64,000 nucleotides of DNA from Nautilus pompilius. Its lineage: Eukaryota > Mollusca > Cephalopoda > Nautilida > Nautilidae. Numbering within the stretch: position 1 is the first letter of the stretch; the number at the start of each line of letters is the position of its first letter. The stretch is taken from the NCBI GenBank assembly GCA_018389105.1, contig JACATO010000120.1:1174001-1238000 (forward strand), given 5' to 3'. Below are positions 1,125 to 64,000 of this stretch, piece after piece. The notes under the pieces are model-generated. The model ran no database searches, was not told where the DNA came from, and saw only the letters and a program-made list of their open reading frames with translations. The translations under genes and the position numbers were made by a program.

Positions 1125-2850
1125 CATTTTGGTCAACAAAATTAAATGTATTATACTCATTATGAATGCAAACCAACTTTTTTAGACTAATTTTTCATGC
1201 TGATTTCAAAATTTCACTCCATTTGTATGCAGCACGTATCAGTTTTTCAGTAGATACATGCAAATATTTACATATTTGTATATATGAAATCATTAACGTA
1301 ATAAATAAGGACATATTATTTTTAGAAAGTAAATGAGTTTATTGAGTTAAAAATCATCGCTATCATTCTACAAAGAATGAATACACAAAAAATGGGTCAG
1401 ACAAAACAGACAAAGTTAGAACAACAGAGTGAGAAACATTGTGATTTGGATTTCCTGCGGTGTTCCTGATCTGGTTGATCACGGTAAAGTGTCCAGCAGT
1501 AGTCAGCCAGCATACTGTCATTCCAGAAGCCTTGGTACTGTTTCTCCATAGCACTAATGTCATGGTGAAATCTTTCACCATGTTCATCAGACACTGCTCC
1601 AAGGTTATCTGCGAAGAAATCCAGATGGGAGTCCAAGAAGTGAACTTTCAGTGACATGTGACAACCCATTGCTGAGTAACATTTCAGAAGATTCTTGATG
1701 CCATCCTTGTAGTCCATTGCCTTCTTGTTGCCCAAGAAATTCTCACAGATTCAAATGAAAGCATTCCAGTTCATCCAGTGTTGTCTTGAAGTTGACATCT
1801 TTGAGTCTTCTCTAATTTGGGGTCCGACAAAGATACCCTCTTTCAACTTCGCCTGTGTGATTTTGGGAAACTTTTCTACAATATACTCAGACCCTCTGGC
1901 ATTTCTCTTCCCTAGTGTCTTTACAAACTGTTTCATCAGTCCAAGCTTTATGTGCAAAGGAGGCAATAGGACATTACATGGATCTACAAGAGGTATATTC
2001 TTGACGCTGGACAGTCCTGGCTGGTATGATGTTCTTGTCTGCCAGTTTGATTCCGAATAATGTCTGTCAGTTGCCCGACTATCCAATAGACACAAGAAAC
2101 AACAGTATTTTGTGAAACCTGACTGCATTCCCATTAACATTCCAATGACTTTTAAATCTCCACATATTTCCCATGAGTATCTTTCATAGGCAATGGCATG
2201 AAGTAAAAGTTCCATATTCTCATATGATTCATGAAGATGAATGGAGTGTGCAATAGGAATGGAGGGCTTCAAATTACCATTATGGAGAAGTACAGCTTTT
2301 TAAAAAAAATATCTATAACTTATAAATCTTCTTGATCTCTGGTGTTATTGTACGTTTTTGAGCTTTCACAATAAATTGTCCACAGACATAACAAAACACA
2401 TCAGGAGGATTTCTACACTGTCTTGACATTGTTAACACTGTAAAACAAGTAAGGAAATAGATACAAACAGTTATACTTATATTGAATTTGAGATGATGAA
2501 ATATTTTATCAAACCAATTATGACTGGACAATTTGAGATGTTGAAATACCTATTTCATCAGACAAAACTTGATTGGTTAATTTAAGATGATGAAATATTG
2601 CATCTGAGCTATGCAGCAATGAATAATGTAGTTTATTTTAAAGGTGTGTTTCCATGATGTAAATGAAATACATGCATACACGTCATTAATTGGAATTTCT
2701 ATATAATGCATGAGCTAAAACCAAAAAACTTTCTCATCTTGAAAACTGTACGTGATGTCAAAAAACTAATTGTATATTTGAAATCAGCATTAAAAACTAC
2801 ACTAAGTACACCTTGACATATGCTTGATGAAAAATACTTGTTGACCAGTG
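1125..2850 (-). mobile_element. CACTG-ended DNA transposon, copy A (internally deleted; CACTA/Chapaev-like)
   Basis: The right terminus reads TTGACCAGTG then TTATTAACC, the inverse of the CACTGGTCAACA terminus seen in two other copies here. The left terminus is degenerate (CATTTTGGTCAACAAAA, from about 1125), so no target duplication is proven for this copy. Subterminal GCTGATTTCAAA motifs lie inside both ends. The coding strand is minus. Bases 2313-2850 are the reverse complement of 63272-63806 with no difference seen by eye. The flanks differ, so these are two independent insertions and not a segmental duplication. Relative to the 22.7 kb copy, about 680 bp of the protein-coding centre is missing. 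Assignment to the CACTA/Chapaev group rests on the CACTG ends and the 3-bp duplication seen in the copy at 43202, and is inference. Confidence 0.8.
1397..2429 (-). pseudogene. Transposase-like gene of copy A, centre deleted
   Basis: This is the defective protein gene of copy A. The N-terminus starts at 2429 (MSRQCRNPPDVFCYVCG) with a C-x2-C pair and runs to IKKIYKL, where it stops after the deletion junction near 2313-2330. The protein resumes in another frame with a segment encoding AVLLHNGN, then ICGDLKVIGM, a C-x2-C motif ending in DSRA, LPPLHIKLG and GIFVGPQIR. After one in-frame TGA near 1750 it continues with LHFLDSHLDFFADN, SDEHGERFHHDI and MLADYCWTL. The last motifs are diagnostic of a large family of 'uncharacterised' proteins expanded in several invertebrate genomes. 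The Asp in GDLKV and the acidic residues of SDEHGERFH are candidate catalytic residues, which is inference. It cannot make a full protein. Confidence 0.75.
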
Positions 2851-5800
2851 TTATTAACCTTTTTAAAAAAAAAATTGATAATCATTTTACAATAATGCTT
2901 TATGTATTAAAGCACATATTTATTTGTGGAATCCAGCTATAAAATTTTAAAATAAAGGATATTCTTTAAAAATAATTTTTGAAGTATTTCATGATTTTGC
3001 ATTAATAAATGAAAATGAACTTTTTTTTTCCCTTTGAATACTGCCTATTATATAAATAAACTAGCATTTGAAAGAACATGTGTATCATTCCACAAACATA
3101 TTTATATTCAAATTACTTGAGCAAATAAAAAGTATTATTAGAAAATATGCCAAACAGAATCTACTTTGTTTTATTGAATCTTTGATGGTAATGTCATTTT
3201 TAGATGATATGGTGAAGGATGTTTAAACTTTAAATTGGCAATATGAAATATTCATGTATTAATTATGTATTATAATAAAATAATAAGTAAGTTGGGAACA
3301 ACATGTTATCTATCAATCTGAGTATGATAAATGATACATCATTAATGCAGCTGTTTGTCTTTACTAAGAGTATCCTGACAACTGTATAAACTAAACATAA
3401 ACATGTCTAAAGAAATCTATGTTTGAAGAATTTAGAAAACTTATTTTAATGTTCTGTTTGAAAAATTGCATGCAATTAGAAAGAGACTGAGATACCATAA
3501 AAAAGTTACATTGGAATAAATGAGAAATTTCCTTAACTCAAGTCATTTTCAAAAAAATTACTCTAGTCACATTTTTTGGCAATAAGTACACATTGCTTAA
3601 TTTTCAATTAAGTGTTTGGAAAACAAACAAGAAATATGTTGTTTTTCATGGTCTACAGTACACCAATTAGGCTGCAGTTATGATATGATGCTAAGATTAT
3701 GCATTTGCTATTACTTGATAAATGTTTTTCATAAGTTCAACAAGATTTGATAATATTATCAAATATGTAGTGTCATATGTCAATATTTTCTTTTTTGGTT
3801 CATTTATTTTTATGGCACTAGTGCTGCTGAGAACAGCTATAGATTTTATTTTTGGATATAGAAAATAATAATGATTTCCTAAAAAATTAATGTTATTTTA
3901 AAGATCTACCTCAAATGATAAAGATGTCATTGCTAGAGTAAAGAGATAGAGATTGGATGGAAACCTTTCTCAAAGATAGGCCACAGCTTGACTGGATGAT
4001 CATGTGTCCATCATAATTTTCTTGTATCTTGATGACATCTAGCTACAAATAAAACCATTAATTAATATAGGCTTGATCCAACCCATGTTACAATGTAACA
4101 TCAGTTGATAATTGCAGCTACTTTATTTATGGAATTGCTACTTAACAGACCAGGTGTACCAGAATACATCCATTCACCATCATCAGCAGATTGAGATTAA
4201 ACAAGACATATACTTAGCATACCAGATTTTAGGCTAATGTTGTTTTCTCAAATGATTCAACTGTATTAAGTATATTTAAAATCAGTTAGTTTGTCTGTCA
4301 TCTTTGCCAGCATCAAGTCATACTGCAGTCTCACAAGCAGAATTACAACAGGAGTGTCATGGTATTTCTATAGCCAGGATATGCTGAATATGCCAGTCTT
4401 TGAGTAACAGACTAAATAATTTCATTACTGCATGATAATATAAATGTATTATAATTAATTTGTAACCCTGAATGTAATAAAACTTTGGCAAAAATCTATA
4501 GAATTTCATTATTTTTTTTGTTGCTTAGTATCCTGTATAGTTCACCAGTCTATAGGGCCTTTTGAGTTTCTTTAAAATCTGTTCACAAATGCACAAATAA
4601 AATCAATATTTATTCATTAATTACCAGATGGGTCCTGTTTATGAATGGTGTATAGTTCCATCATGACTAATGAAAAATCATTCATCTCAGTGAATTATAT
4701 TCATACTGCAAAAAGGCATCATCCATGTTTGTAACTTAGTCAATATTTAATCTCTGTATAATAATAATAAAAAAAAAAGATGCTTAATAAGACTAGTTTA
4801 ACTATTGGTTATTTTTCCTATTACTACAGTGGGAAAATAAATATCTAATTTATGATAATATATTTAGTGCAGTAACATCTCCCATCAAGCAGGAAAATAA
4901 AAAAGTAACTGCTAACACATCTATTGTAGTAAGAATATCCAATTTTCAGTGGAAACTTGGTTTCTAGGTAAACCAGTAGCATCTGGTTTTGACTGCACTA
5001 TACATTTTGGGCAATGTTTTAATTTTGCATTGCTAAAAAAAATAGATTTTATGAAAATTAAAGATCTTTCATATTGCAATGACTTGATAAACATATATAT
5101 ATATATTTTACTTTCTCTAAAAATGTACATTTTTTTGATGACAAACATATCTTGTAGTAAAAATTAGTACACAAGTTTTCATAATGGTTTTGTATAAACT
5201 AGAAATAATCTATACTTTCTGTCTATTAAATATTAACATTAATAATAAATAACTTACTGTGACTTAAACCTTGTTGCATATATTCTAAATGATTAACACT
5301 GGTATTTGATATATATTTCATCATAAAATCTCTTGGATGTGTATATATATATATATAGCAGTAATTGTTATGATGAACAAGCACAATATAAACTCGAAAA
5401 ATTTATAAAAATTGCTTTGCTGAGAATTACTAAAATAAACCTGAGATAATGCCAAAAATGTGTAACTTTATATGTGGTTTAGATAATTCAATTTACTGAG
5501 TGCTTGGATAGTGTTAAAAAACACTTTGGCAAAAGTGAGATACAAAGACAAGTGAATAAAATAATAAAACATCCACATAAACAAATTATATCTAAAATGG
5601 AAGCAAATAGAGATATTTTGTACTTGTGAATATTTTCAAAACGGGATAAAGTAGTGTAATAGACTTTTAAATGTCTCAGTAATATATTCTAATTAATAGC
5701 AACAAAAAGTAATTTTTTCTTTTAAATTAGAATTAAACAATGAACTTAAAACTACTATCAGAATTGTTGCTTTATATTAAAAATTAAATTTTTATTGTAA

Positions 5801-6410: not shown

Positions 6411-8049
6411 CAGTGGTGTGCAAAAGTTTTGCATAAAAATAATTTTTCCTGTAAATTAGCTTGCATTTTGTCGAAAGCAGTTGTTATCAAATCTTGTTCA
6501 TTAAAGTATTTCTATATTACTGTTGTGCATCTATTTCAATAATATCAAGCATATTGTTTCATTGTAAGAAAAGTTATAATTTTTAGAAAATCATTTGCAT
6601 CAAATCAACGTGTGCAAAAGTGTTGCATAAAATCTAGACAGCTATCTAATCAATTCAGATTCAATTCCAATTATGCAGAAAGTGATCAGATCTATAAATA
6701 ATGAGTAGAATATCTGAAATTCTTGATAACTTGTTGACAACAACGAGGCATGCTGGCTACCAAATGCTGACAATTGTCACTACTGAACTCCGACCAGGCT
6801 TCCTCGATTTTCCGTTTCAAATCGGTTTTATTTTTCGGATTTTTGGCACTAACACTGAGTTTAATCAAGTGCCAAATGTTTTCGATGGGATTGAGATCTG
6901 GGCTTTGGGCCAGCCATTCGAGGAGGGGGATTGGCAACTCTGCCATCAAGGCCTTGACACTCCTAGCTGTGTGGATGCAGGTGTTGTCCTGCTGATAGAT
7001 GGCCGTCAGGGGCATGTGGTCACAAATATACGGTTTGACAATGTCCGAGACAATCTTAGCATAGTCATGAGCATTCATTCAACCCTCCACGTGATACAAC
7101 CGATCGACACCGGATGATTGAAAACAGCCCCAAATCATGGCCGAATCTCCCCCTGCTTGCAGAGTCAGTCAAATGCAACTAGGATGGTATTCCTCGGACG
7201 CTAATCGCCAAACTTACACCCAACCCACCAAGTGGACTCTCACAAATTTGCTTTCATCGGAAAACAACACTCAGGCCCACTGGGCCACAGTCCAGTGGAG
7301 ATGGTCGTGAGCCCACTGCAGTCGCTTTTGACGATTGTCCAGGCTGATGAACGGCTTCTTCTGTGCCGATCGCCTGAACAGTCCCATGTGGATCAAACGC
7401 CGTCTGATGGTGCACGAGGCCAACTGGATCCCATGGTGTCTTGACAAAGCAGTCTGGATGTTGGTGGAAGTGCGGAATTGGTCCAAGTTCGACATGCAGG
7501 CGATCAGACGATCCTGTCGAGCTGTTGTTTTCCGTAGTCTGTCGGCTCTGCGTTTTGAAATTAGGCTCCCATCAGCTTTCCAACATTTCAGGGTGCAAGA
7601 TATCATTGACTGATTGCAACTGATACGATCTGCAGTGACCCACTCAGTTTCACCATCTTTCATGCGAACAATTGTGGCCCGCTGTTCATGGGTCAAATAT
7701 CGGGCTCTTGGCATCACTATATTGAACAAAAATGAATCAGAATAGTGGAAAATGGCATATTTTCATATTTATATTCTACTATCCTAAACTATTATAGCAC
7801 AAAATATATATTCTAATATTTTGTAGTTTATGCAACACTTTTGCACATGCCAATTTCATGCAAATTATTTTATTAATATTTAAATTTTGACTGTGCAATT
7901 ACAAAGTGGATCTTAGTGTTATAAATCATTTAAAGACACTGATACCTTTCAATTAAAACAGAAAACATACAATAGTTACTAATTTCTACAAAATAAGAAC
8001 TCATTTTCTGAGTATAGTAATTTTTATGCAAGACTTTTGCACACCGCTG
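6411..8049 (-). mobile_element. Tc1-like transposon with doubled (IR/DR) terminal repeats
   Basis: A TA dinucleotide flanks both ends (6409-6410 and 8050-8051). The outer terminal repeats are CAGTGGTGTGCAAAAGT at the left and the inverse of it ending in GCACACCGCTG at the right. A second, inner pair (GTGTGCAAAAGTGTTGCATAAA near 6609, inverse near 7828-7848) gives the IR/DR arrangement of about 220 bp per arm known from Sleeping Beauty-type Tc1 elements. The total length of 1,639 bp and a single transposase gene on the minus strand fit a complete-length Tc1 element. The arms differ at several positions, so it is not a fresh insertion. Confidence 0.93.
6692..7729 (-). pseudogene. Tc1-family transposase (DD34E), full length with in-frame stops
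   Basis: This is a cut-and-paste transposase of the Tc1 family, about 345 codons and the usual length. The N-terminal helix-turn-helix region begins with MFNIVMPRARYLTHEQRA (an internal Met at MPRARYL is the alternative start). It is followed by a second HTH (TIRRRLIHMGL) and the DDE catalytic core: FSDESKF carries the first Asp, QQDNTCIHTA the second, and NPIENIWHLIK the Glu, with exactly 34 residues between the last two. The reading frame is continuous over its whole length. It is interrupted by about four stop codons (at 7271-7273, and three more between there and 7079), all in the stretch around and after the first catalytic Asp, with no net frameshift. Host silencing or simple age would explain this. 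The protein is inactive, although the ends might still be mobilised in trans. Confidence 0.93.
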
Positions 8050-8651: not shown

Positions 8652-9480
8652 TTAACTCACCAAAAAAGATGTTGATTGGTGAATGAAGTGATACTGACCA
8701 GGATATCTTGCAATGGGAATTACTGGGGGGGGGGCAGTACTAACTTCTGCCTCATCCTGTAATTCATCATCTTGTGATTCAGGCTCTGCTCCTGCAACAA
8801 AAAATGTAGCCAAAGTTGTTTTCAGTTTACAGTGCATCTTCTCTTTATACAGTTCCCTGTAACAGTTTAAGTCATCATTAACTACTCTTGCTACTTTATG
8901 ACTACATTCACAATTGAGGTCATTAACGGCAAAGATTTGCAGTCCTTCTATAAGTGCAAAGGCCTGGGACATTTGCTTTGTAGTCAACTCAAGTTGGGCA
9001 TGTGGAGCTTTTACACTCCTCTTCTCTAAGCTCGTTCTTGTTCCACCAGAATTAGATCCTCATTGGACAAACCTTCTCCATGAGCCTGTAGCAATTCAAC
9101 CATATCATCTTCTATGACATCTGTAAAGCCAACATCTTTTGCAAGTGTCACAATGTTTTTTTAAAACTTTTTGTTTGCTTTGTGTTTGGGGAAAACCTTC
9201 AAAGTCGTGAATACACTCTGGCCATATATGTTTTTATGCACCATTCCTAGCCGATTGTTTCACTTCACCCCACGATTTGGCGATATTGTTTAGGGCATCT
9301 ATGACATTGTACATTTTCCAGAAGTTGCAAACTAAGTTTGTCTTCCCCTTCAATTGCTTCAAAGAGTTGTCAAAAAATTCTTCAAAGATAATACGCCTTG
9401 AAGTTGGTGATCACCTTAATCCATTGGCTAGAGCAAGGCAGTTGAGTTTTGGGGGATGTACTCCACTCTGACATTGTCAG
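8652..9480 (-). pseudogene. Tigger-type transposase, C-terminal remnant
   Basis: The best-preserved piece is a 111-codon frame at 8652-8987. It contains TTKQMSQAFALIEGLQIF, then KVARVVNDDLNCYRELYKEK, which match the C-terminal tail of Tigger (pogo-family) transposases. Going upstream on the minus strand there are fragments in other frames. One reads DDMVELLQAHGEGLSNEDL and one reads FFDNSLKQLKGK followed by a DALNNI-like segment. These correspond, from memory of the family, to the region after the third catalytic residue. No catalytic DDE motif is preserved. There are several stops and frameshifts. Not functional. Confidence 0.75.
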
Positions 9481-9634: not shown

Positions 9635-10925
9635 CAACATCTATCCAAAAAGAAACTGAACTTTTTAAAAAACAAATTTATTGCTTTACTTACAATTTAA
9701 TCAGACTTGTCTCCTTCAAAATAGTTCCTCCACTGTTGATACACTGCCCCCCCCCCTCCAGCATTTTTTCCAGTTTTGGAACGCATTTTCAGGGATAGTG
9801 CATAGTTCTCATAGTGAATTTTCTTCGATCTCTTCTGTCGTTTGAAATCGGTTACCTTTCAGGATGGATTTAAATTTTGGGAACAAAAAAAAGTCCGCAG
9901 GAGCCAAATCTGGAGAGTAGAATGACTGGAGGATGAGAGTCATCTCGTTCTTTGCCAAAAAGTCACAGATTAGGAGTGAATCATAAGCAGGTGCGTTGTC
10001 GTGGTGCAGCATCCAGGTTTTGTTTTTCCATGCCTCAGGCCTCCTTTGCACTGCCTCCCTCAACCACCTCAGGACATCTAAGTAAAACTCTTTATTGATC
10101 GTCTGACCACGTGGAACAAACTCATGATGAATAATGCCCTTCCAATCAAAAAAGATGATCAACATCACCTTCACATTTAAGCGATTCTGACATGCTTTTT
10201 TTTGGTTGCTGCGATGACTGCCTTTTTGTTTTGACATTGTAGCTGTACACCCATGTTTCGTCACCTGTTATGATACTTTTCAGAAAACTTTCATCAGCAT
10301 TCGAACGATCAAAGAGTTCCTGACTGACTGTGACTTGGTTCTTTTTGTTTATCTGTCAGCAGACGCAGCACAAATTTTACGACTACACGATGCATGTTCG
10401 ATTTTTCTTTTAAAATCATGTGGCACGAACTTTTACAGATGCCTACTTCGGAAACTTCACGGACAGTCAGGCGACAATTTCCACGGATCACAGCACACAC
10501 TTTCTCAATGTGATCATCGTCCATTGTCGTGGAAGGTCGTCCAGATTTGGGATTGTCTTCAGTGGATGTTCTTCCCGATTTGAAATGCTGGTACCATTGC
10601 ATATGGCTCAAACAATCCTCCTCATAGGCCTGTTACAACATTAGAAAAGTCTTCATAAAAGGTTTTCCCAATTTGAAACAGAATTTCACACAAACACGTT
10701 GCTCTTCAAGATCCTTCATTGTTCAACTTGTGACAAATCGCCAAGTACACTAAACATACGTTCACTCTAGCACATGTAGATTGATGACTAACTGACTTGG
10801 TGTGATGCAGCTATTATTAGACTGAAGGTCAAGGTCACCAATACACAGCACTGCAGTTGCGAGCACGCTGCAGTGGCTGGTTGGCATGCTGTTTTAAGAG
10901 TTCGGTTTCTTTTTGGACAGACTTG
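9635..10925 (-). mobile_element. mariner transposon nested in the Tigger-like element
   Basis: The element is 1,291 bp with TA at both flanks (9633-9634, 10926-10927) and about 30-bp terminal inverted repeats sharing TCCAAAAAGAAAC and GAACT (left at 9645-9665, inverse at the right end). Length, TA target and a single transposase gene are classic mariner features. It inserted after the surrounding Tigger-like element was already in place, so it is the younger of the two. Confidence 0.93.
9697..10719 (-). pseudogene. mariner transposase (DD34D), broken
   Basis: The start at 10719 (MKDLEEQRVCVKFCFKLGKT) and the end EGDKSD give about 340 codons, the normal mariner length. Domains in order: HTH region with HFKSGRTSTEDNPKSGRPST and an 'EVSEVGICKSSCH' helix; TGDETW with the first Asp; DWKGIIHHEFVPRGQ; HHDNAPAYDS with the second Asp; and YSPDLAPADFFLFPK with the third Asp, 34 residues on, giving DD34D. 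At least three frameshifts (near 10612-10660, 10264-10309 and a G-run near 9750) and two stops break it. All three catalytic Asp codons survive in the DNA. Confidence 0.92.
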
Positions 10926-15355: not shown

Positions 15356-18300
15356 TGCTCTGCTGTAAATAAATGCATCCCGACAGTTCTGTGCTAAAGG
15401 GGGAGGCGTTAAAAATATTGATTTCTAGTTTCTGATACAGCTTAAATAGCTCTACAAAAATGTTCTTTCTGTAATGGAATAGTTTACTGTTATCTTAGAA
15501 ATTTTCTCTAACTTAAACAAAAATTAAATTTAAAGAATTTGATTTTTTTTAAAAAAATATGTATATAATTTCACCTAGTTAATTCACAATTCTTAACTTG
15601 CTGAATTTTGCATAAATTTTTGTTAGTAAATATATGATTTCTGTTTCTCACAAAATTTTAACTTAGAATAATTCTTGAAAACTGATTAAAAATGAAATTA
15701 AAGTATAAAAGCTAGCTTCTGACCATATTGAAAATAACAAAAAAAAAACAGCATTAAAATGTTTATTGGCAAGGGTAAAACAGTTGATCACTTTTAGTTA
15801 ACAACAAAGTTTTTTGACATCATTATTAATAATATTTCATACATTAATTCAAAATAGTTTACATGGGTTGGATATTCACATAAACAAACTAAACAGATTA
15901 TTGTTGCCTTCTTGCTGAAAATATAGTCTTCCATTTTATAATTTAACTATGGTATTTTAATTAATTTTTTGTGCAGTAAAAAAAAAAAAGAATTGACTAC
16001 AGAAGGTTCCAACAAAATGACCATTTTAGTAGTGAAACATAGGTGATCATTTTCTGATTCTTCCATTATTAAATAAATTAATTTCCAGAAAATATCCTTT
16101 TTGATAGTGTGTCACTTATAAGATTTAGTTGATTTTATCTTCCAGTGAGAAAGCAGTAATAAATTTTGTTTCAGAGAAATGTTCAAGTTAATCTCCAGTC
16201 ATAATCTAGATCATTTAGAGAATGTGAGGTTAGCAGAAACAAAGGGATTTAAAAAGTAAAAATTAAATCTGATTATGGATTAATGCCATTAGTATATATT
16301 GTTTCTTCTGTTGTTTTTTTAATATCTTGTTTTCATCTCTTTTGTCAAATGACTAAAAAACATCAAAAAACCATTTACCTTGTCATTATTTCTGTAAGTT
16401 TAATAGAACACCATTAAGATTTTAATAGTGAATGAAGAATTTTGAAAATAAACTGGATGCAGTATCAACTCTTTTGGTGCTTGTATAATTTTTATTGAAA
16501 ATTCAAATTGAAACTGATATTGTAATTTTTCTTCTAATGCATGTAATATGTATTACATGTACCTTGTGATGATCATTTTGCATTGCTCACTGATAAGTTT
16601 AGCTACACAATTTCAGTCAAACTACAGGTATAAAAAAAAGTTAAATAAAATGTTTTCATTGCAGAAGTCTTTTAGTTGTGCATGATTGCAGGTATCTGTG
16701 TACCATTTGTGAAATTAAATCCTAAAATTTGTATAAATGTAGTATTTTTCTCAAATACAATGTTTGTACATGTATTTTCTGATCCACTTTATGTATGGAT
16801 ATTGTACATTTTTGGCAACTTTTTATTAGTTTGTTTGTTTCTTTCTTTCTAATTTAGATTCATAAAACTATAGAAAAAAGAAAGTAATTTGTAATTAATT
16901 GCAATTTTATTAGAAACTACAATATAATAATTAATATAAAGTTTTATCAATTCTGTTTCAAACATTTATTTATGAAGTAAGTTATTGGTTTTAAAATAAT
17001 TTGGAATTCCTATGTGTTCCTACTGATATGTAAAGCAAAAATTCTATTTATCAATATGTCATTGTTTACTAGGCTATAGCAAAGGTGTATACATAATTGT
17101 GGGACAGTCTTCTTATATATATATTTGTTGTTGTTGTTTATGCATGGATGAATCATGTTATTTTTGTTGTAAAAAAAATCAAAACATCCAAACAAATTAT
17201 GCTTATAGAGAGATGATGATGAAAGCACGAGGGCATTGCAGTCGTGGTCAACAAGAAATTTTTGTTATTGAAAACAGGAGAATAAACACACAAATTTATT
17301 GGAGTAAAACTTTGTTTTATCATTTGTGGAAGGCACTCTGGACTAACACAGGTGTGACAATCCAGAGTGAACGAAGTAAGAGAAGGAAACAAACTTTTTT
17401 TTAAATATCAGCTTAGTCTGAACATCATCATTTATCACCATGACAACAAAGGTAGAGTACTTTTCACTCACATATCTTAATAGATCATACAATATCACAA
17501 TATTTGTTTTTTATAAAAAATGTTAAAAAGCAAACACTAGTTTTTGTTTAGTTTTCAAGAAAATAACTCAAAGAAAGACATTTTGTCTATGGGTTTTTTA
17601 ATAATAAATTGCTGATGAAAAAAATAATAAAGAAGGGTTGTTGTAAGAAAAGCATTGGTTGTCCAGACTAGACCGAAAAAAAAAGTTTAGACCTCATAGA
17701 GAGAATTTAACTGCTCAGAGATAAGCAAATGTGCAAAAGATTTAAAATGAAAGATGCTTAATTATACATGTTACAGTTAATAACTTTAGGATGCTTTCAA
17801 TGGGGAAGTACCAAATTACAGCAAGAAATAAAATCTAGTTTAAACCACATATGACCCTGATTTGTACAAGATTATGATACTACTTTCTTAACTATTAAAT
17901 ACAAAATGGATAGACAAAACTTCAGACGTAACTCATTCCAACATTTCTACCATTAAAAAATCAAAGAAAACAATATACATGTAGATATAGTAATTTATGA
18001 TTAAGCCAGTTGTGAAGTACCTAACTTTAATAACACTTCATTTGACCATTTAAACTGTGGCAGTGCAAAAATCAAAACAAACAACTATCATTGTTCTTGA
18101 AGGATACTAACTGCCTGCTGCTGCTAAACATCCATGGCAAGAGCTATTATGTGAGAGGGGAGAAACTACAGAAAGCCTTGCTATCATATCATGAATATTA
18201 CATGGAACAGAATGTTGAAAAACCTTCTGGCACAATACAGAACAGCAAGCACTCAAACACAATCTAGCAAACCAATATTGATTAGTTATCAACCATCTTC

Positions 18301-22695: not shown

Positions 22696-24715
22696 CACTG
22701 TCCAACAAAATTTGATGAATTTTCTTTTACATAGAATGTTAAATGTGTATTTTATTAATATATTTTTATATTTTTTTAGACAATCAAGACAAAGAGGCAA
22801 TGGTTAAAAAGTGTATTAGGTTAAACTTTAAAAGTGTTTGGCCATGCAGGATCTTTTATGTGAGACAAACTTGGTATCACGCACTAGACACCAACAGTAG
22901 TCAGCAAGTAATGCTGGCAAAGGCTTTCCTTTATACCGTGCTTCCATATCACTAATTTCCTGATGAAATCTCTTTCCGTGTTCATCAGATACATGAGACG
23001 CATTGTCAGGAAAAAAGTCTAGATGAGAATCAAGAAAATGAAGTTTAAGTGACATATTACAGCCAAGTTTTTCAAAGTTTTTAATTAGATCTTTGACCAG
23101 GGATTCAAAATTTGAAGCTTTATGTCTCCCAAGAAAGCCACTGACAACATTTCGAAAAGAGCACCATGCTGCTTTTTGGACAGGGGTCAGAATGTTTTCG
23201 AAGCTTTGATCATTTAACAACTGCCGTACCTGTGGTCCAACAAATATGCCTTCTGTAATTTTGGCAGTGCTAAGTTTTGGAAATTTTGCCTTTAGAAAGT
23301 TCATTGCCTCACAGTCTTTATCAAATGCCTTCACAAACTGCTTTATAACTCCTAATTCAATGTGAAGGGGTGGCAGAAGAATCTTATTTGATGGCACAAG
23401 TGGGGAATTGGCAATATTCTTGAGCCCCACTGTTAATTCCTTGCATTAGTGGCCGTCTTTTGCCCGTGAATCCCAAAGGCACAAAAAACAGCAAAACTTT
23501 GTATATCCAGTTTGTAGTCCAGTTAACATTGCAATAACTTTTAGATCTGCACAAATTACCCACTGATGTTTATTGTACTGAAGAGCATTTAGAATAACCT
23601 TTAGATTGTTGTATGTTTCTCTTAGTACCATGGAATGCACAACAAGAACAGATTGTAATTGATTCCCATTATGCAGTAATTCAGCCTTCACACTGTACTT
23701 TGAGGCATCAATAAAAAGGCGCCATTCAGAAGGATCATGTTCCAATTCCAAAAAATAAAATAGGCCTTTGATGTCATAGCAAAAACAGAGGTCATACTCC
23801 ATTTTAAAAAAAGACTCTAAATTTTGTGAACATTTGCAATAAAATGATATTTTAGCACCTTTTCAAGTACATTTTTCTCCTTAAGTCTTGATGCCAGAAT
23901 TTCACTCTGTTCTTTATTCAACTTAAGATCTTTTATCAAATCACTTAAGTCATTCTGTGTAAAAAGTTGTGGTCTCTCACCTAATTCTGACGCTGATGCA
24001 ATGAATTCGGGATCTTTGTTCATAGTGCTGCTTTCATTTTTGGTGTCTTCAGAATCAGTATCTTTGTCTTCAGGCAAGAAATCAGGTTTCTTGGGCACTG
24101 GAATCGAATGTGAATGCTGTACTGGACGAGAAGCTGACCGAAAATTGGGATAATATATATTTCCAGTTCTAATGCCAGTGAGAGCGACATTAGTACAACA
24201 AAAATAGCAATCGTCAATGTGATTTTGTGGTTCTCGCCAAATCGTGGGAATACCGAATGGCATAGAGTAGCCAGTGTTGAGCCACATGCTTAGCCTTGAA
24301 ACACAGTTTGTACAACAATATTGCGGTGCCCAACTTGCCGAATCCACTTTTGTATCAAAATAGGCTGTATAGAGATTTCTAATATGCTTATTTATTACAT
24401 GCTGCTTCTTTTTAGCAACATATTCACCGCAGATGTAACAAAAATTATTCTTGTCATTCTTACAGCAGCGACCAGAAGTTGAAGTTGCCATTGTATCATT
24501 TATTCTTATCTAAAAATAAACAATATAGAGTTAGGTAAGTGAGTAGTAATCTTATAATTATAATAAGCTCAAATGTAAGTCTGTAATTAATAGTGATTTG
24601 CTTTTGAATCAGCAATAATCAAAATCTTAAATTTACACAAAAACTACCCGTTAAATGTATAAAAATAAATGCATTTCCGTAATCCTCGTAAAATTTTAGT
24701 TTGGAAACATGCATT
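22696..24715 (-). mobile_element. CACTG-ended DNA transposon, second copy (near full length)
   Basis: The left terminus is CACTGTCCAACAAAA at 22696, preceded by TTA (22693-22695), the same 3-bp target as the copy at 43202. The gene is on the minus strand and spans 22828-24491. The right terminus is not clear: a subterminal AATCAGCAA motif near 24608-24617 fits the family, and the end probably lies within the next 60-110 bases (24680-24715). The coordinate is therefore approximate. Of the copies in the window this one shows the protein most completely. Confidence 0.78.
22828..24491 (-). pseudogene. Transposase-like Cys-rich protein, one frameshift and one stop
   Basis: About 550 codons. The N-terminal part (24491-23817, 224 residues, start MATSTSGRCCKNDKNNFCYI) has C-x2-C pairs at FCYICG and CCTNC, then MPFGIPTIWREPQNH and DDCYFC, an acidic Ser-rich linker (residues about 125-165) and a Lys/Leu-rich segment. 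After a frameshift near 23805-23820 it continues as MEYDLCFCYDIKGLF, FIDASK, ELLHNGNQ, WVICADLKVIAML and CCFLCLWDSRAKDGH. One in-frame TAA (near 23446) stands where relatives carry Tyr. The remainder has LPPLHIELGV, GIFVGPQVR, FLGRHKA, LHFLDSHLDFFPDN, SDEHGKRFHQEI and LLADYCWCL. The paired cysteines suggest zinc-binding DNA recognition. The conserved acidic residues in ADLKV, DSRA and SDEHG are candidates for a DDE-type active site, which is inference. Proteins with these motifs are common but mostly uncharacterised in invertebrate genomes. Confidence 0.8.
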
Positions 24716-37964: not shown

Positions 37965-38735
37965 CAGGGGTTGGCAATTTCTCGGACACCTGGGGCCAAA
38001 TTATGGGCCCAAGATCACCTTGCGGGCTGGAGTAAAAAGAAGGACACTTATAAATGCACAAACATATTTATTGCTTTACTACTGCGTATCAGCCTTCTTA
38101 ACACAATGAGAAACATGATGGTGCTTTCGCTGTGAACACAGAGATGAAATATCCGGTGAAATGCTACAAGATTTCAAAGCAAGGATATCATTGAGGTGAC
38201 TATCAGTCAACTGTGCACGAAAGAGGTTCTTGGCGAGCTTCATTTGAGAAAATAATTGTTCACAACTATAAGTCGACCCAAACATCGACATGATGACATG
38301 AACCAGGCCCACAATTCCAGGAAAGCGACCACTGGGAAACATAACATCCCTGAAGAAAGCGGCGGGAGGCAATGAAGAGAAGCGAGAACGAAGCTGGTCG
38401 TCACTCTGCAACTCAATAAGCTCCATTTGGGGATCAGTAGGGGCATCGTCCACAACAATGTCAAAGGGCAACGAAAAGAACTTCATCTTGCCAGCTCGCC
38501 TGCGATAAATATGAAGCACTTTCTTACTCACCTGTGCTGGCATCGATCTTGAAGAAAATGAATGGTCGATATCGGTGAATTGCCCGCTCTTTACCGAGTT
38601 TCCTATAGCATTAGTGTGTTGGTTAACTATTTTTAGAAATGACGAATGACGACTTTTTTAAGAAAAGACTGCCCGTGGGCCGGATTCTATATTAATATGC
38701 GTAAAGGCTCGCAGGCTGCCAATTGCCGACCCCTG
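37965..38735 (-). mobile_element. hAT transposon, short internally deleted copy
   Basis: The left terminus CAGGGGTTGGCAA at 37965 and the right terminus TTGCCGACCCCTG at 38723-38735 form an 11-of-13 inverted repeat typical of hAT/Charlie elements. The 8-bp flanks ATCTATAG (37957-37964) and GTCTACAG (38736-38743) agree at 6 of 8 positions, fitting an aged hAT target-site duplication. Length is only 771 bp, so most of the transposase gene is missing. GC content is clearly above the surroundings. Confidence 0.9.
38079..38543 (-). pseudogene. hAT transposase C-terminal (dimerisation) domain
   Basis: A single 154-codon open frame fills most of the hAT element. The core reads FPGIVGLVHVIMSMFGSTYS, CEQLFSQMKLAKNLFRAQL and TDSHLNDILAL, the hAT C-terminal dimerisation domain in the version found in GTF2IRD2-like (Charlie8-type) proteins. 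The RNase H-like catalytic core and the BED zinc finger are absent through internal deletion, so this is not a working transposase. The frame itself is uninterrupted, notable for a non-autonomous copy. It could reflect recent deletion or chance preservation. Confidence 0.85.
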
Positions 38736-43201: not shown

Positions 43202-45482
43202 CACTGGTCAACAACAATAAAAAAATTTTTTCTGCATCGCTGAATTAAACACCTGATAATAACTAAATTTTGGCTGCTGATGACAAATATCAGTGGTTCT
43301 GCTCTATCAGATCGGGATTTTGAGATAACTGGTTCTAGTATCGAGAATATTTTGCTTCTATGATCCAAAACTTAATTTATAATATCCGCTTATTAATAAA
43401 TTAAAAAATAAAATGAATTAAAGCTTGTAACTTTTATTTCAGAAAGGCTTAACAAAAAATTGTCAATTCAACAATAATCGTGTTTTGCATGTTCAGAGAC
43501 AGGAATTATTTGTTCTTCATTTAAAATCATCACTAGATGTTTCTCTTCTGAGCATCCGGCAGAAGTCTGCCATCATTTTTGGATACCATTTCCTTGAAAG
43601 TATTTTTCTATTTGTGAAATGTCTTGGTAGAATCTCTTACCATGCTCATCAGAAAATTCTCCAAGATTTTCAGGAAAAAAATCGAGGTGACTGTCCAAAA
43701 AGTGATCTTTTAAAGACATTTGCACTCCCAGAACTTTATAAGCATTCAAAAGTTCCTTAATGATTCACCTATAGTTTTTGGACTTATTTTTGCCCAGAAT
43801 TTTCTGGCACTCATAATTCCTTTCCTTCAAGATGGTTCAAAAACACTTCATCGTTGTGGAGAGTTCTTATTTGAGGTCCAACGAAAATTTCCTCCTTTAA
43901 TTTGGCATCATGATGTTAGGAAACTTCTCACTAAGATATTTAAATCCACATCTGTCCTTGTTTTTGGCCTTAACAAAATTCTTCATAAGACCAAGCTTTA
44001 TGTGGAGGGGTGATAACAATACATCTCAACTAATCACTGATACTTCACATTTTCCTGACCATGGAGCAAATTTTCACAAGGAGACCAGTCTTTCTTTACA
44101 TAATGTTCCTGGGTAGCCCTGCTATCCAACAGGCAAAGGAGAGCAGCAATATTTTGTAAATCCATTTTGCATTCCAGTGAGAAGACCAATGACTTTTAGG
44201 TCTCTACAGATTTTCCATTTGTATCTTTGATATTGAATGGCATCAAGAAGAATTACCATATTTTCATGTTTCTTTTAGATGACCCAAATGACCAATTGGA
44301 ACACAGGTATTTATTTCTATTATGTAAAAGTACCACCTAAGTCGGTAAAAAGATGCCAATCGTTTGGATTATGTTTCATTTCAAAGAATGCAAATAAGTC
44401 TTTGATGTCACAACAGAAACATAGTTTATTTACAGTTGTAAAACAACTTGCTAGGTTTGATCTTCTTTTTTGAAAGAATGTTATACATGCATCTGAAATC
44501 ACCAAATTCCATTGTTTAAGTCTTGAAGCTAAAAGCTTAAACTAAGATTTGGATAGGTACAAGTCCCTTACTAAGTCATTCAAACAAATCTTGTGTAATG
44601 AAATTCTGATTGTTTTCACTAGAAGGATGAAATTCCACATCATCAGGTTTGTCTTCATTTTATTCATCATCAGAAGAAAAATTCAGCACTTTTTTGTGCT
44701 TTTGGTGACGTTGGAAGTGGAAGCTCATCACTGTGGGGAACTTGCTTAATAGCTGATTCCACCACAGGATAAGCAATCTTCTGTCTGTTTTTTTTAAGTG
44801 AACCCAGCTATTTTGGTCTGGCAAAAGTAAATCATCAAAATGATTTTTCTGCTCCCGCCAAACCATTGGCACTGCGAACGGCCCTCTTTTTTGCCTACTG
44901 TTTAATCGGTCCCTTGACTGGCATGTACATGTATTGCAGCAAATGTGTGGTGCCCAGCTCTTTTCCTGATCTCCTATTTTGCACCCAAAGTAATGAAAGT
45001 AATCTGTTCTTATAAATGGGGTAATGTTTCTTCATTGAGATGGTGAGATCAAAAGGCCACAGATATAACAGAATGAGTCTGCACCATTGACACACATCGA
45101 GTAGCCATTATTTTGAAATAAAATATTACATAATATTATTGGTTGGTTAATTCCAGAATATTCCTATATGATCTGAAACCAAAAACAGTTGAAAATCAGT
45201 CACAATTTGAATATAAATTTGAAAATACTATTTTATATTTACTATTGTAAGTAAATTATGATAAATATTCAGAATTATGAATACAGATAATTATAATTTG
45301 AAGGGTTTTTTCCCTGTAGACTCAATATACCAATCACTATTTTGGTAAATGAGCCAACAACTTATGCGTAGAAAAATCTAGACCTGATATATAAAAATGG
45401 GGTTGATTTTCAGAATCAGCACCATCAGATTAGCAAAGTGCAACCATACTTTAGTTTGGTGCAAAAACATTGTTAACCAGTG
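43202..45482 (-). mobile_element. CACTG-ended DNA transposon, third (oldest) copy with both ends
   Basis: The left terminus is CACTGGTCAACAAC and the right terminus is the inverse, TGTTAACCAGTG, a 12-bp terminal inverted repeat with one mismatch. TTA is duplicated at both flanks (43199-43201 and 45483-45485). Subterminal motifs TGCTGATGACAAATA (near 43275) and, inverted, GATTTTCAGAATCAGCACC (near 45400) lie about 60-75 bp inside each end. This is the copy that defines the element limits: 2,281 bp with a 3-bp target duplication. The gene on the minus strand is badly decayed. Confidence 0.88.
43490..45105 (-). pseudogene. Decayed transposase of the third CACTG element
   Basis: Minus-strand fragments match the protein of the copies at 22.8 and 1.4 kb. 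Near 44900-45105 is the N-terminal zinc-pair region (CCNTC-like, decayed). MPMVWREQKNHFDD is at 44872-44830 (family MPFxIPMIWREPxxH). KLCFCCDIKDLFAFFEMKHN, followed by DWHLFTD, is at 44440-44330. Fragments related to the C-terminal half (LHFLDSHLDFF, SDEHG, KRFYQDI-like) lie at 43540-43720. Numerous frameshifts and stops are present. Open frames on the plus strand here are shadows. Confidence 0.7.
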
Positions 45483-57281: not shown

Positions 57282-58838
57282 CAGGTGCATCTCAAAAAAT
57301 TTGAATATTTTTGAAGAGTTCATTTTTTTTCATAATTTAATTCAAACAGTGAAACTTTCATATATTCTAGATTCATTACATATAAAGTGAAATATTTCAA
57401 GCCATTTTTTGTTGTTTCAATTTTGATGATTATGGCTTACAGCTCATGAAAATCAAAAGTCCACTATCTCAAAATATTAGAATATTTCATAAGATCAATA
57501 AAAAAAAGGATTTATAATATAGAAAATTTGAACTTCTGAAAACTATGTTCATTTATGCACTAAATACGTGGTCGGGGCTCCTTTGCACGAATCACTGCAT
57601 CATTGTGGCGTAGCATGGAGGCGATCAGCCTGTGGCACTGCTGAGGTGTTATGGAAGCTCAGGTTGCTTTGATAGCGGCCTTCAGCTCGTCTGTATTTTT
57701 GGGTTTGGTGTCTCTCATCTTCCTCTTGACAATACCCCAAAGAGAATCTATGGGGTTCAGGTCAGGTGAGTTGGCTAGCCAATCAAGCACAGTAATACCA
57801 TGGTCAGCAAACCAGTTGCTAATAGTTTTGGTACTGTGGCCAGGTGCCAAGTCCTGCTGGAAAAGGAAATCAGCATCTCCATAAAGCTTGTCAGCAGACA
57901 GAAGCATGAAGTGCTCTAAAATCTCCTGGTAGACGGCTACGTTGACTTTGGACTTGATAAAACACAGTGGACCAACACCAGCAGATGACATGGCACCCCA
58001 AATCATCAGTGACTGTGGAAACTTCACACTGGACTTCAAGCAACTTGGATTCTGTGCCTCTCCACTCTTCCTCCAGACTGTGGGACCTTGATTTCCAAAT
58101 GAAATGTAAAATTTACTTTCATCTGAAAAGAGGACTTTGGACCACTGAGCAACAGTCCAGTTCTTTTTATTCTTAGCCCAGGTAAGACGCTTCTGAGCTT
58201 CTGACATCATCTCTGGTTCAGGAATGACTTGACGCTAGGAATGCGACACTTATAGCCCATCTCCTGGACACGTCTGTGCGTGGTGGCTCTTGATGCACTG
58301 ACTCCAACCTTAGTCCACTCCTTGTGAAGCTCCCCCATGATCTTGAATCGGCTTTGATCGACAATTCTCTCAAGGCTGCGGTCATCCCTGTTGCTTGTGC
58401 ATCTTTTCCTACCACACTTTTCCCTTCCAGTCAACTTTCCATGAATATGCTTTGATACAGCCCTTTCAGCAATGACCTTCTGTGGCTTAACGTCCTTGTG
58501 GAGGGTGTCAGTGAGTGTCTTCTGGACAACTGTCAAGTCAGCAGTCTTCCCCATGATTGTGGTTGTGTGTACTGAACCAGACTGGGAGATTCATGGTATT
58601 TATACTGCATAAATAGTGATTTACTCAAACTCGAAATGGAATATTCTAATATTTGGAGATACGTTTTTCTATTTTTTTAATCTGTAGGCCGTAATTATCA
58701 AAATTAAAATGAAAAAATGCTTGAAACATCTCAGTTTACATGTAATGAGTCTAGAATATATACAATTTCCACTTTCTGAAATAACTGACAAAAATATTGA
58801 ACTCTTCCACGATATTCTAATTTTTTGAGATGCACCTG
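57282..58838 (-). mobile_element. Tc1-like transposon, complete length, of a type known from fishes
   Basis: The left terminus CAGGTGCATCTCAAAAAATT at 57282 follows TA (57280-57281). The right terminus is the inverse (AATTTTTTGAGATGCACCTG), followed by TG, a decayed TA. Inverted similarity extends for about 200 bp per arm. An inner repeat of the terminus (ATCTCAAAATATTAGAATAT near 57467, inverse near 58640) gives IR/DR-like arms, and subterminal tracts such as 'gatgattatggcttacagc' are present. Length is 1,557 bp. Both termini and transposase resemble, from memory, Tc1-like elements abundant in teleosts and lampreys. Confidence 0.93.
57560..58554 (-). pseudogene. Tc1-family transposase, broken, third catalytic residue changed
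   Basis: The start at 58554 (MGKTADLTVVQKTLTDTLHK) and the end RAKEPRPRI give about 330 codons. There is an N-terminal HTH with ERAVSKHIHG, where relatives carry about six more residues between ERA and VSK, so an 18-bp in-frame loss is likely. GREKCGRKRCTSNRDDRSL is an AT-hook-like linker. A second HTH follows with ATTHRRVQEMGYK. A frameshift near 58207 precedes EAQKRLTWAKNKKNWTVAQW. The catalytic core has FSDESKF (first Asp), QQDLAPGHST (second Asp) and DLNPIDSLWGIVK, where Glu is expected 34 residues on but Asp is present. An in-frame TGA at 57659-57661 replaces a Trp codon, and the C-terminus continues beyond it. Inactive. Confidence 0.93.
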
Positions 58839-60844: not shown

Positions 60845-63271
60845 TAGATTACAACTTAAAAACATTTTAATCTAAGGAGAAAATATTAACTAAAATTACA
60901 TTATGAAATCAAAATACTCTTTTAAAATGTGCTGCTGTTGTTTATGAATTCCATGCATAAATAAGCCATGCAAAATATATTCTGGGAGAGACACAAATGA
61001 CTAGGTATTCTTAAAATGAAACTTTTTCTAAAAAAAATGTTTTTTAATTTTTTCAACTAAAAAGTTCTGAATATTTAACATCTTAAAGAAAAAGGTACAA
61101 TACTACTTTAAATTATTTTCTTTCTAGAATTTAGGACAGGAGAGTAATATTCATATAAAATTTTGTGCGTGTGTAAAGATTTGAAAGTTTACAGAGAAAG
61201 TATACCATCATTTTGTTAAGAATGGCCTGGTAATGTTTTAAAATTCTGCTGAAGCTACTACTATAAAATGGAAATTCTTAAATGATTCACAGTGCTTTCT
61301 TTCTTGCAGACTGATCATGTATATCTTTATAGATCTTGAGGTTGCTTGAAGTATATAACAAGAATGCATTTTACTTTTCTATATCTAAAAGAAATTTTAA
61401 AAAAGAGCATTTATTTTGCTGTAAATGAATCCCAAAAGTCCCATAGCATTAACCACACAAATTATTAAATTCAGATTATTTTATTTATTTACTAAAAACT
61501 GTTTGTTTCATTATTTTAACAAAAAATATTACTGGTATATATAGCTTCCATTTATTTCCCAATTCAGTAAAAGATGCATAACTATAAAGTATTAATTTTT
61601 TTTGAGTAGTATTAGTATTTAGTTTACAAAGAGAAAAAAGAAACTTTTTAAAACTTATTCTTAAATCATATAATCTTCTTGTGTAGTATTATAATCATTC
61701 ATGCAACATGAAACTTGGTGATATTAATGCTGTTTACTGGATCTTTTTTTTAAAAATATAGTATTTTAATCACTAAAATTAACTGTTTATGAATAAGAAA
61801 AAGAAAAAAGAATTTTGTTGGCTTACTTTTCTAGATATGGTAGAGTCTTGCATCTTTTATTGAAAGCTTGCAAATACTTTGTGTTTTTTTTTAATTTATT
61901 TCTGGTGAAAATTGTTCAGCTACTTGTCGTGTTTGGCCTTTGTCCAAGGTCAGGATAATCTTCAGATAAAGTTGTCAGTTATGTTAGTGCACATTACTTT
62001 GGTGGGCTAGCATTACACAACCACTGGGTTTCTCACTGTCTGACTTGGTGCAAATCTGAACAAATCAACAAGAAGCTGTAACTCATTCTGCTATGCTGTT
62101 AAGGAATTGTATTGTACCTCAGAGAGAGAGAGAGAGAAGAAGAAAAACAAAAGGCTATTCAGCAGACATAACTGAAAGTCATAAACAAAAAAAGAACAGA
62201 CAGAGTTTCTTCTATAAACTTTTCTTCGGTTTTTCCTATTGCATGCCAGAATCTTTTGTTGATGTGGTGTTGTTCAAACTACACTGATTGATGACTATTA
62301 CACTTTAAGCTGTTGCATCATTAAACAAGTTTTTTTTTTCAAATAATTAAAATTCTTTCTGTTGGAAAGATAGATCCAATGAAGACTTCAGAGTATTTTA
62401 CAGAAATTTATGTAATAGTATCATCAATTTCTGGTGATCATTTTCATAATGAGGACCTTTTGCCAAAAGTTTTTTTTTTCTTAAATTTTAAAAACAACAA
62501 ATATAAGATTAACATAAGTAACTAAACAAATCGTGCATAAAAGTTTGTTTAACAAGACTTTAAAAAACAAACAAAAAACTTTTTAAAAACAAAATTACAT
62601 GCATAGTAATTTATAAAACGGAGCAAATATTTGTATAAAGTTTGCGTAACTTACACCTAAAATTTTGGTAATATGCATATGAATGTTCAGGTCTGTTTTT
62701 TACACATTTTTACATGGGTAGCTTGATTATGAGTGTTTAAGCTTCATGTAAATGTCTAGTACACCTGCATTTTACATACATACCTAATACACCCATGAAA
62801 ATCTATTTGCTCATGTGTAATACATGGATTCTCTGTGGTTTGAACTCAAATAGCCTACACCTTTCATTTGACAAAGCTGCTTCATGAATTGTGAGTGGTG
62901 AATGCCAAAGTCATTAGTTTGTATCACAGAGATTCCATTGGATCACACAAATTTTACGTTATAAAATTAATTTTCATTTATTCATGAAGAAAAAATAAAT
63001 CTCGTATACATGTGTGATAGATTTGTATTTTTGTTCATGCAACTGGTGTATCTCATATGTGGAGTGTGGGTATTGTCTGATCTTGGATGTTCCTTGACAC
63101 CAGGTTACACTACTTAAAAGTGTGGTTGTTATGTGCAGCAGCTCTTACACTATAAATGAACTTATATACCCAGATGCTCATATGTGATTTGTGAATGGCC
63201 ATCTTTGATTATGAGGATAACCATTATTATTATTATTATACACTAATATTTTATGGTTGTAATCTTGACTA
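60845..63271. other. AT-rich stretch with AG and ATT microsatellites
   Basis: An (AG)n tract is at about 62120-62136 and an (ATT)n tract at about 63222-63240. Otherwise nothing recognisable. The 64-codon frame at 62093-62287 starts in the AG repeat and is not a known protein. Confidence 0.45.
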
Positions 63272-64000
63272 CACTGGTCAACAAGTATTTTTCATCAAGC
63301 ATATGTCAAGGTGTACTTAGTGTAGTTTTTAATGCTGATTTCAAATATACAATTAGTTTTTTGACATCACGTACAGTTTTCAAGATGAGAAAGTTTTTTG
63401 GTTTTAGCTCATGCATTATATAGAAATTCCAATTAATGACGTGTATGCATGTATTTCATTTACATCATGGAAACACACCTTTAAAATAAACTACATTATT
63501 CATTGCTGCATAGCTCAGATGCAATATTTCATCATCTTAAATTAACCAATCAAGTTTTGTCTGATGAAATAGGTATTTCAACATCTCAAATTGTCCAGTC
63601 ATAATTGGTTTGATAAAATATTTCATCATCTCAAATTCAATATAAGTATAACTGTTTGTATCTATTTCCTTACTTGTTTTACAGTGTTAACAATGTCAAG
63701 ACAGTGTAGAAATCCTCCTGATGTGTTTTGTTATGTCTGTGGACAATTTATTGTGAAAGCTCAAAAACGTACAATAACACCAGAGATCAAGAAGATTTAT
63801 AAGCTATACTTTGACTGTCCTCTTGGAGATCAGGACAAGTTATGGGCACCACATTTTATCTGCTCAGCTTGCTCAAATGGCTTACGTGACTGGTTCAATA
63901 AGAGGAAGAAGTCCATGCCTTTTGCCATTCCAATGATATGGAGGGAGCCGAAAGACCATTTTAATGACTGTTATTTTTGCAAAGTAAATGTCACAGGATT
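63272..64000 (+). mobile_element. CACTG-ended DNA transposon, copy B (start; runs off the window)
   Basis: The terminus CACTGGTCAACAAGT starts at 63272, preceded by CTA. Bases 63272-63806 match the reverse complement of 2313-2850 without a difference that I can see. Sequence outside the terminus is unrelated to that outside copy A, so the terminus is a true element boundary. A pyrimidine-rich tract ending in AG (TTACTTGTTTTACAG, to 63684) just before the start codon could be a splice acceptor of a 5' leader intron, which is inference. Unlike copy A, the coding sequence continues open to the window edge. Confidence 0.9.
63693..64000 (+). CDS. Transposase-like protein of copy B, N-terminal part, open at window end
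   Basis: The first 102 codons are uninterrupted. The start MSRQCRNPPDVFCYVCGQFI carries a C-x2-C pair. Then come IKKIYKLYFDCPLGDQDKLW, APHFICSACS with a second C-x2-C, MPFAIPMIWREPKDHFNDC and CYFC with a third pair. The arrangement aligns position by position with the N-terminus of the 22.8 kb copy (FCYICG, CCTNC, MPFGIPTIWREPQNH, DDCYFC). The three Cys pairs suggest a zinc-binding DNA-recognition module. The Met at 63693 is chosen because the same start is conserved in copy A (2429). Catalytic regions would lie beyond the window. It may belong to an intact, autonomous copy, but this cannot be judged here. Confidence 0.8.
   Translation, partial: MSRQCRNPPDVFCYVCGQFIVKAQKRTITPEIKKIYKLYFDCPLGDQDKLWAPHFICSACSNGLRDWFNKRKKSMPFAIPMIWREPKDHFNDCYFCKVNVTG

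Follow-up and report, generated by a model that had tools for sequence, protein, structure and literature searches.

The 64,000-nucleotide stretch of Nautilus pompilius DNA analysed here (the window) carries the same transposon end near both of its limits, in opposite orientation and about 60 kb apart. The question that this arrangement raises is whether the two copies record recent transposition, or whether duplication of a larger block, the assembly itself, or repair of an old copy explains them. The features of the right copy (A_R) and the left copy (A_L) are as follows.

63272–64000, forward strand: A_R, 5′ end of a Chapaev3 transposon with terminus CACTGGTCAACAAGTA; its open reading frame is open to the window end and its body continues past the window
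63272–63692, forward strand: 421 bp of A_R made up of its terminal inverted repeat and non-coding leader, with no difference from A_L
63518–63637, forward strand: three degenerate subterminal 26-nt repeats in the A_R leader, spaced 49 and 45 start to start
63693–63998, forward strand: N-terminus of the A_R transposase, in frame for 102 codons and still open at the window end, with a zinc-finger-like CxxC...CxxC
2851–2854, reverse strand: A_L 5′ flank ATAA (A plus TAA), the expected Chapaev3 target-site half
2319–2850, reverse strand: 5′ part of A_L (terminus, leader and the first 37 codons), matching 63272–63803 without a difference
2300–2318, reverse strand: A_L internal deletion junction and filler, at most about 19 bp with an uncertain inner edge; the frame of the start codon runs straight into a stop
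1400–2299, reverse strand: A_L transposase second half, interrupted by a single in-frame TGA and with no frameshift seen; it carries C(2)C, LH and H(4)H
1130–1246, forward strand: A_L 3′ terminal inverted repeat, beginning TGGTCAACAA, without an adjoining CAC or duplication

Extent of the identical inverted pair

The initial annotation had described an inverted pair identical over about 530 bp, and base-by-base comparison confirms it: 63271–63803 is the exact reverse complement of 2319–2851, a run of 533 bases. The right-hand interval given at that time, 63272–63806, starts correctly and ends three bases too far, as the exact run closes at 63803. The first base of the run is a flanking A common to both sites, leaving 532 element bases, of which 421 belong to the leader and 111 (37 codons) are coding, with no difference between A_R and A_L, which places the 95% upper limit of their pairwise divergence at 0.56%. 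The identity comparison spans these 532 bases, the second half and 3′ end of A_R being beyond the window. Self-comparison of the window returns the arms as 2314–2851 and 63271–63808, the only long perfect inverted pair in it at the thresholds used, and perfect identity over 532 bases cannot have arisen by chance. The match starts at the element terminus. Inward it stops because A_L has an internal deletion with a short filler, so that its inner end is structural rather than a gradual divergence; transposase homology in A_L restarts near 2299 in a different frame.

The earlier statement that sequences outside the termini differ is borne out as well. The 1-kb outer flanks of A_R and A_L reach a best local score of 34, within the range of 200 block-shuffled controls (mean 29.7, maximum 50; 22 of the 200 reached 34). 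By raw count the 3-kb flanks have 13 12-mer pairs in common, and seven of the ten listed fall in an ATT repeat. Under very permissive BLAST scoring the match reaches into the flank by about 50 bases, at 95.9% across 592 columns, and we take this extension as background in AT-rich DNA. These comparisons bear directly on a segmental inverted duplication of a larger block, which would also leave inverted arms. The chance of such a duplication appears negligible, because the two flanks bear no relation to each other and the outer boundary of the match coincides with the transposon terminus; for the 1-kb outer flanks it is rejected, their similarity being no greater than that of shuffled sequence.

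The inversion of the copies and their position close to both window ends could also point to an assembly artefact, either a misjoin or polishing that equalised two slightly different copies. Against this, each copy has its own unrelated flank from the transposon terminus onward, only one of the two has the deletion junction, and polishing would be able to mask only a small divergence. We consider an artefact highly improbable.

Relatives in the window and family assignment

Searching the window with parts of the A copies found two relatives.

22696–24491, reverse strand: copy C, a third Chapaev3 lineage, with 3′ terminus CACTGTCCAACAA followed by TAA-T
43202–45482, reverse strand: copy D, a badly decayed relative of 2281 bp, with CACTGG at both termini and a TAA duplication inside A...T

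C is less decayed, with a single TAA stop and a single apparent frameshift in the part of its transposase that was read; no 5′ terminus of C was found within the window. Across 277 aligned codons A_L and C differ 111, 87 and 184 times at positions 1, 2 and 3, respectively, and this third-position excess is as expected if the lineages parted under selection on the protein.

CACTA elements have CAC-type termini, and target duplications of 2 and 4 bases occur in other CMC groups; D differs from those groups in its 3-base TAA duplication, as in Chapaev3. According to PMC4079192, Chapaev elements are recognised by 5′-CAC/GTG-3′ termini and by a transposase bearing C(2)C, LH and H(4)H, and Chapaev3, a group that includes the families Merrow, Garfield and Conan, by a target-site duplication of TWA between A and T. 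PMC4411706 gives an N-terminal Chapa zinc-finger domain as a Chapaev3 feature. CAC...GTG termini are present at both ends of D, at the 5′ ends of A_L and A_R and at the 3′ end of C. The TWA duplication inside A...T is seen in D (A-TAA on one side, TAA-T on the other), the one copy of one that can be read on both sides; of the flanks readable on a single side, A-TAA of A_L and TAA-T of C fit, and the visible A_R flank, ACTA (A-CTA), does not match the ATWA target of Chapaev3. A_L contains CFLC, PPLH and HGERFH, and C contains CFLC and PPLH, with HGKRFH in its translation; such short patterns recur within the same fragments (in A_L, LH in four places and H(4)H in three), and the occurrence taken as the motif is our own assignment. 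In A_R the motifs are not visible.

On these grounds (CAC termini, the TWA duplication between A and T on D, and the transposase motifs) we file the A_R/A_L element as an ordinary cut-and-paste transposon of the Chapaev3 type (CMC group), a type known in animals, the named families being compared by description only. Its earlier designation as a CACTG-ended transposon is supported. The hallmarks are spread over different copies, with the termini and duplication on D and the motifs on A_L, and two features do not fit, namely the ACTA flank of A_R and the A_L 3′ end, which has neither GTG nor a matching duplication. Garfield and Conan resemble A_L in having internal-deletion derivatives, and Merrow and Garfield differ in having a two-exon gene (both from PMC4079192); a two-exon gene is not seen here, and the stretch of C coding sequence that was read shows no apparent intron. 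The likeness to other CMC elements (CACTA, Mirage and Chapaev proper, the last as described in PMC4079192) is in the CAC-type termini.

In the Pfam scans that covered them, none of the four copies (A_R, A_L, C, D) had a match reaching the cutoff. The CxxC...CxxC region of the transposase N-terminus is accompanied by weak zf-AD matches below the Pfam cutoff, in C at 24279–24440 (reverse strand, E 0.0047) and in A_R at 63780–63905 (forward strand, E 0.054), and a literature search for a link between this N-terminal region and zf-AD found no paper. The structure model of the N-terminal region (mean pLDDT 38.5) is too poor to use. That of the C catalytic region, where a Chapaev3 transposase would have a DDE triad within an RNase-H-like fold, has a mean pLDDT of 43.6 and a pTM of 0.37; in its first part strands and helices follow an order like that of RNase H, at a confidence too low to use. 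Profile searches of solved structures returned chance-level matches only (best E 0.76 and 0.23). Pattern scans of viral_contigs gave 0 and 174 matching stretches and those of genome_contigs (prokaryotes) 9 and 107, none of them confirmed by tblastn; absence from these collections, which hold viruses and prokaryotes, says little about a eukaryotic element. No RNA families or tRNAs were reported in the window.

The leader looks free to change, with no apparent functional constraint, because D matches its first part at 61.9% over 113 columns, four of which, at the start, are the A-TAA flank, much as the same permissive settings align flanking DNA to D at about 60%. A more tolerant aligner could follow the match of the A leader with D inward for about 240 bases, and had to open many gaps to do so. 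The three subterminal 26-nt repeats are possible transposase-binding repeats. Near-matches to the terminus number six in the window against 0.65 expected by chance: three are element ends, one lies inside the C coding sequence, and two are a motif just before the start codon in A_R and A_L. This motif (63671–63686 in A_R), which resembles a terminal inverted repeat, was considered as an internal transposon end and rejected, as it coincides with a good splice acceptor. Acceptor-like sequence precedes the start codon in A (63665–63684, forward strand) and C (24510–24530, reverse strand) and is absent from D; a donor search of the leader with four patterns found one site, at 63443. We infer that the motif is a leader-intron acceptor, because it is a good acceptor match and C also has an acceptor-like sequence.

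Since a leader that seems unconstrained is identical at two sites with different flanks, the A_R and A_L stretches were probably copied recently from one common source.

Damage to the left copy and its origin

The initial annotation had gone further, holding that both copies moved recently. Recent copying (0 of 532 differences) is upheld. Movement of both as whole units is not shown: A_L has lost an internal part, contains a stop codon and is disturbed at its 3′ terminus, and A_R is cut by the window end. Judged against C, A_L lacks the protein from codon 38 to its middle. This deleted stretch includes the region of the first of the candidate acidic catalytic residues, an aspartate, which we assigned from the sequence of C. 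A_L cannot make the whole transposase, because its middle is deleted, a stop follows the junction, its second half lies in a frame other than that of the first 37 codons, and that half contains a TGA. The second half is otherwise little decayed, with one stop and no frameshift seen in 289 codons. The 3′ repeat has no terminal GTG beside it and no matching duplication abutting it. ATTACAC occurs at 1083–1089, 40 bases outward of the repeat; a match within 60 bases was found in 1.15% of 2000 shuffles (2.6% for the shorter TTACAC), and it is possible, though unproved, that a small insertion displaced the 3′ terminus outward to this point.

Internal deletion with filler fits aborted gap repair, as in other DNA transposons. 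By analogy with its family, the transposase is expected to cleave the element at its CACTGG ends, and insertion at A-TWA-T sites would duplicate TWA. The filler junction suggests that A_L is a non-autonomous internal-deletion derivative that would have formed by aborted gap repair after excision, and it most likely arrived at its present site recently, with transposase provided by another copy. We consider it probable that the two Chapaev3 5′ ends have a very recent common source and that the A_L derivative moved in recently. The light decay of its second half favours a young A_L, and the 3′ repeat without terminal GTG or duplication is unlike a clean recent insertion.

Alternatively, A_L could be an older copy of which only the 5′ part was rewritten, 532 bases having been copied from a fresh sister (A_R or another) to mend a break in A_L and joined by filler to the old half, through aborted gap repair or gene conversion. 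The identity ends exactly at the deletion/filler junction, as such rewriting would have it, and the stop codon of the second half and the disturbed 3′ terminus favour this repair model. An exact 14-base run is also common to the junction and the 5′ flank of A_L itself, though it is poly-T/A and recurs at 15542–15555. We nevertheless think it unlikely that A_L is old, as one stop and no frameshift is a light load for such a half, and a derivative moved in trans can carry a stop. The more specific proposal that A_L is a frozen repair intermediate, with a fresh 532-base 5′ end taken from a sister some 60 kb distant, a filler partly templated by the flank and an older second half, is speculative and looks decidedly doubtful; if true, A_L would document naturally occurring aborted gap repair of a Chapaev3 transposon.

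Other transposons and possible recent activity of the family

The earlier view that decayed elements fill the rest of the window largely holds: the remaining transposase-like open reading frames recognised by Pfam are split or partial, and C is less decayed. A Tc1-type transposase in two open reading frames (6692–7762, reverse strand) matches HTH_Tnp_Tc3_2 and DDE_3, both above the Pfam cutoff. A second one, in two overlapping open reading frames of different frames (57659–58590, reverse strand), has DDE_3 above the cutoff and HTH_Tnp_Tc3_2 below it. A mariner-like transposase in two frames (9809–10632, reverse strand) has Transposase_1 above the cutoff and HTH_32 below, and a C-terminal hAT transposase fragment (38079–38657, reverse strand) matches Dimer_Tnp_hAT at the cutoff score. 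The open reading frame at 8652–9059 (reverse strand), which we presume to resemble the end of a tigger/pogo-type protein, has no Pfam match up to E 1.

The A_R/A_L pair is the kind of trace that recent transposon movement commonly leaves, and no new system. Its two copies suggest that Chapaev3 was recently active in this genome, and the same 64 kb also holds C and D, Chapaev3 lineages in a more decayed state. A_R may be a fuller copy whose body lies beyond the window. Should an intact copy lie there, the family could be regarded as a candidate for an active CMC element; otherwise the finding would be routine.
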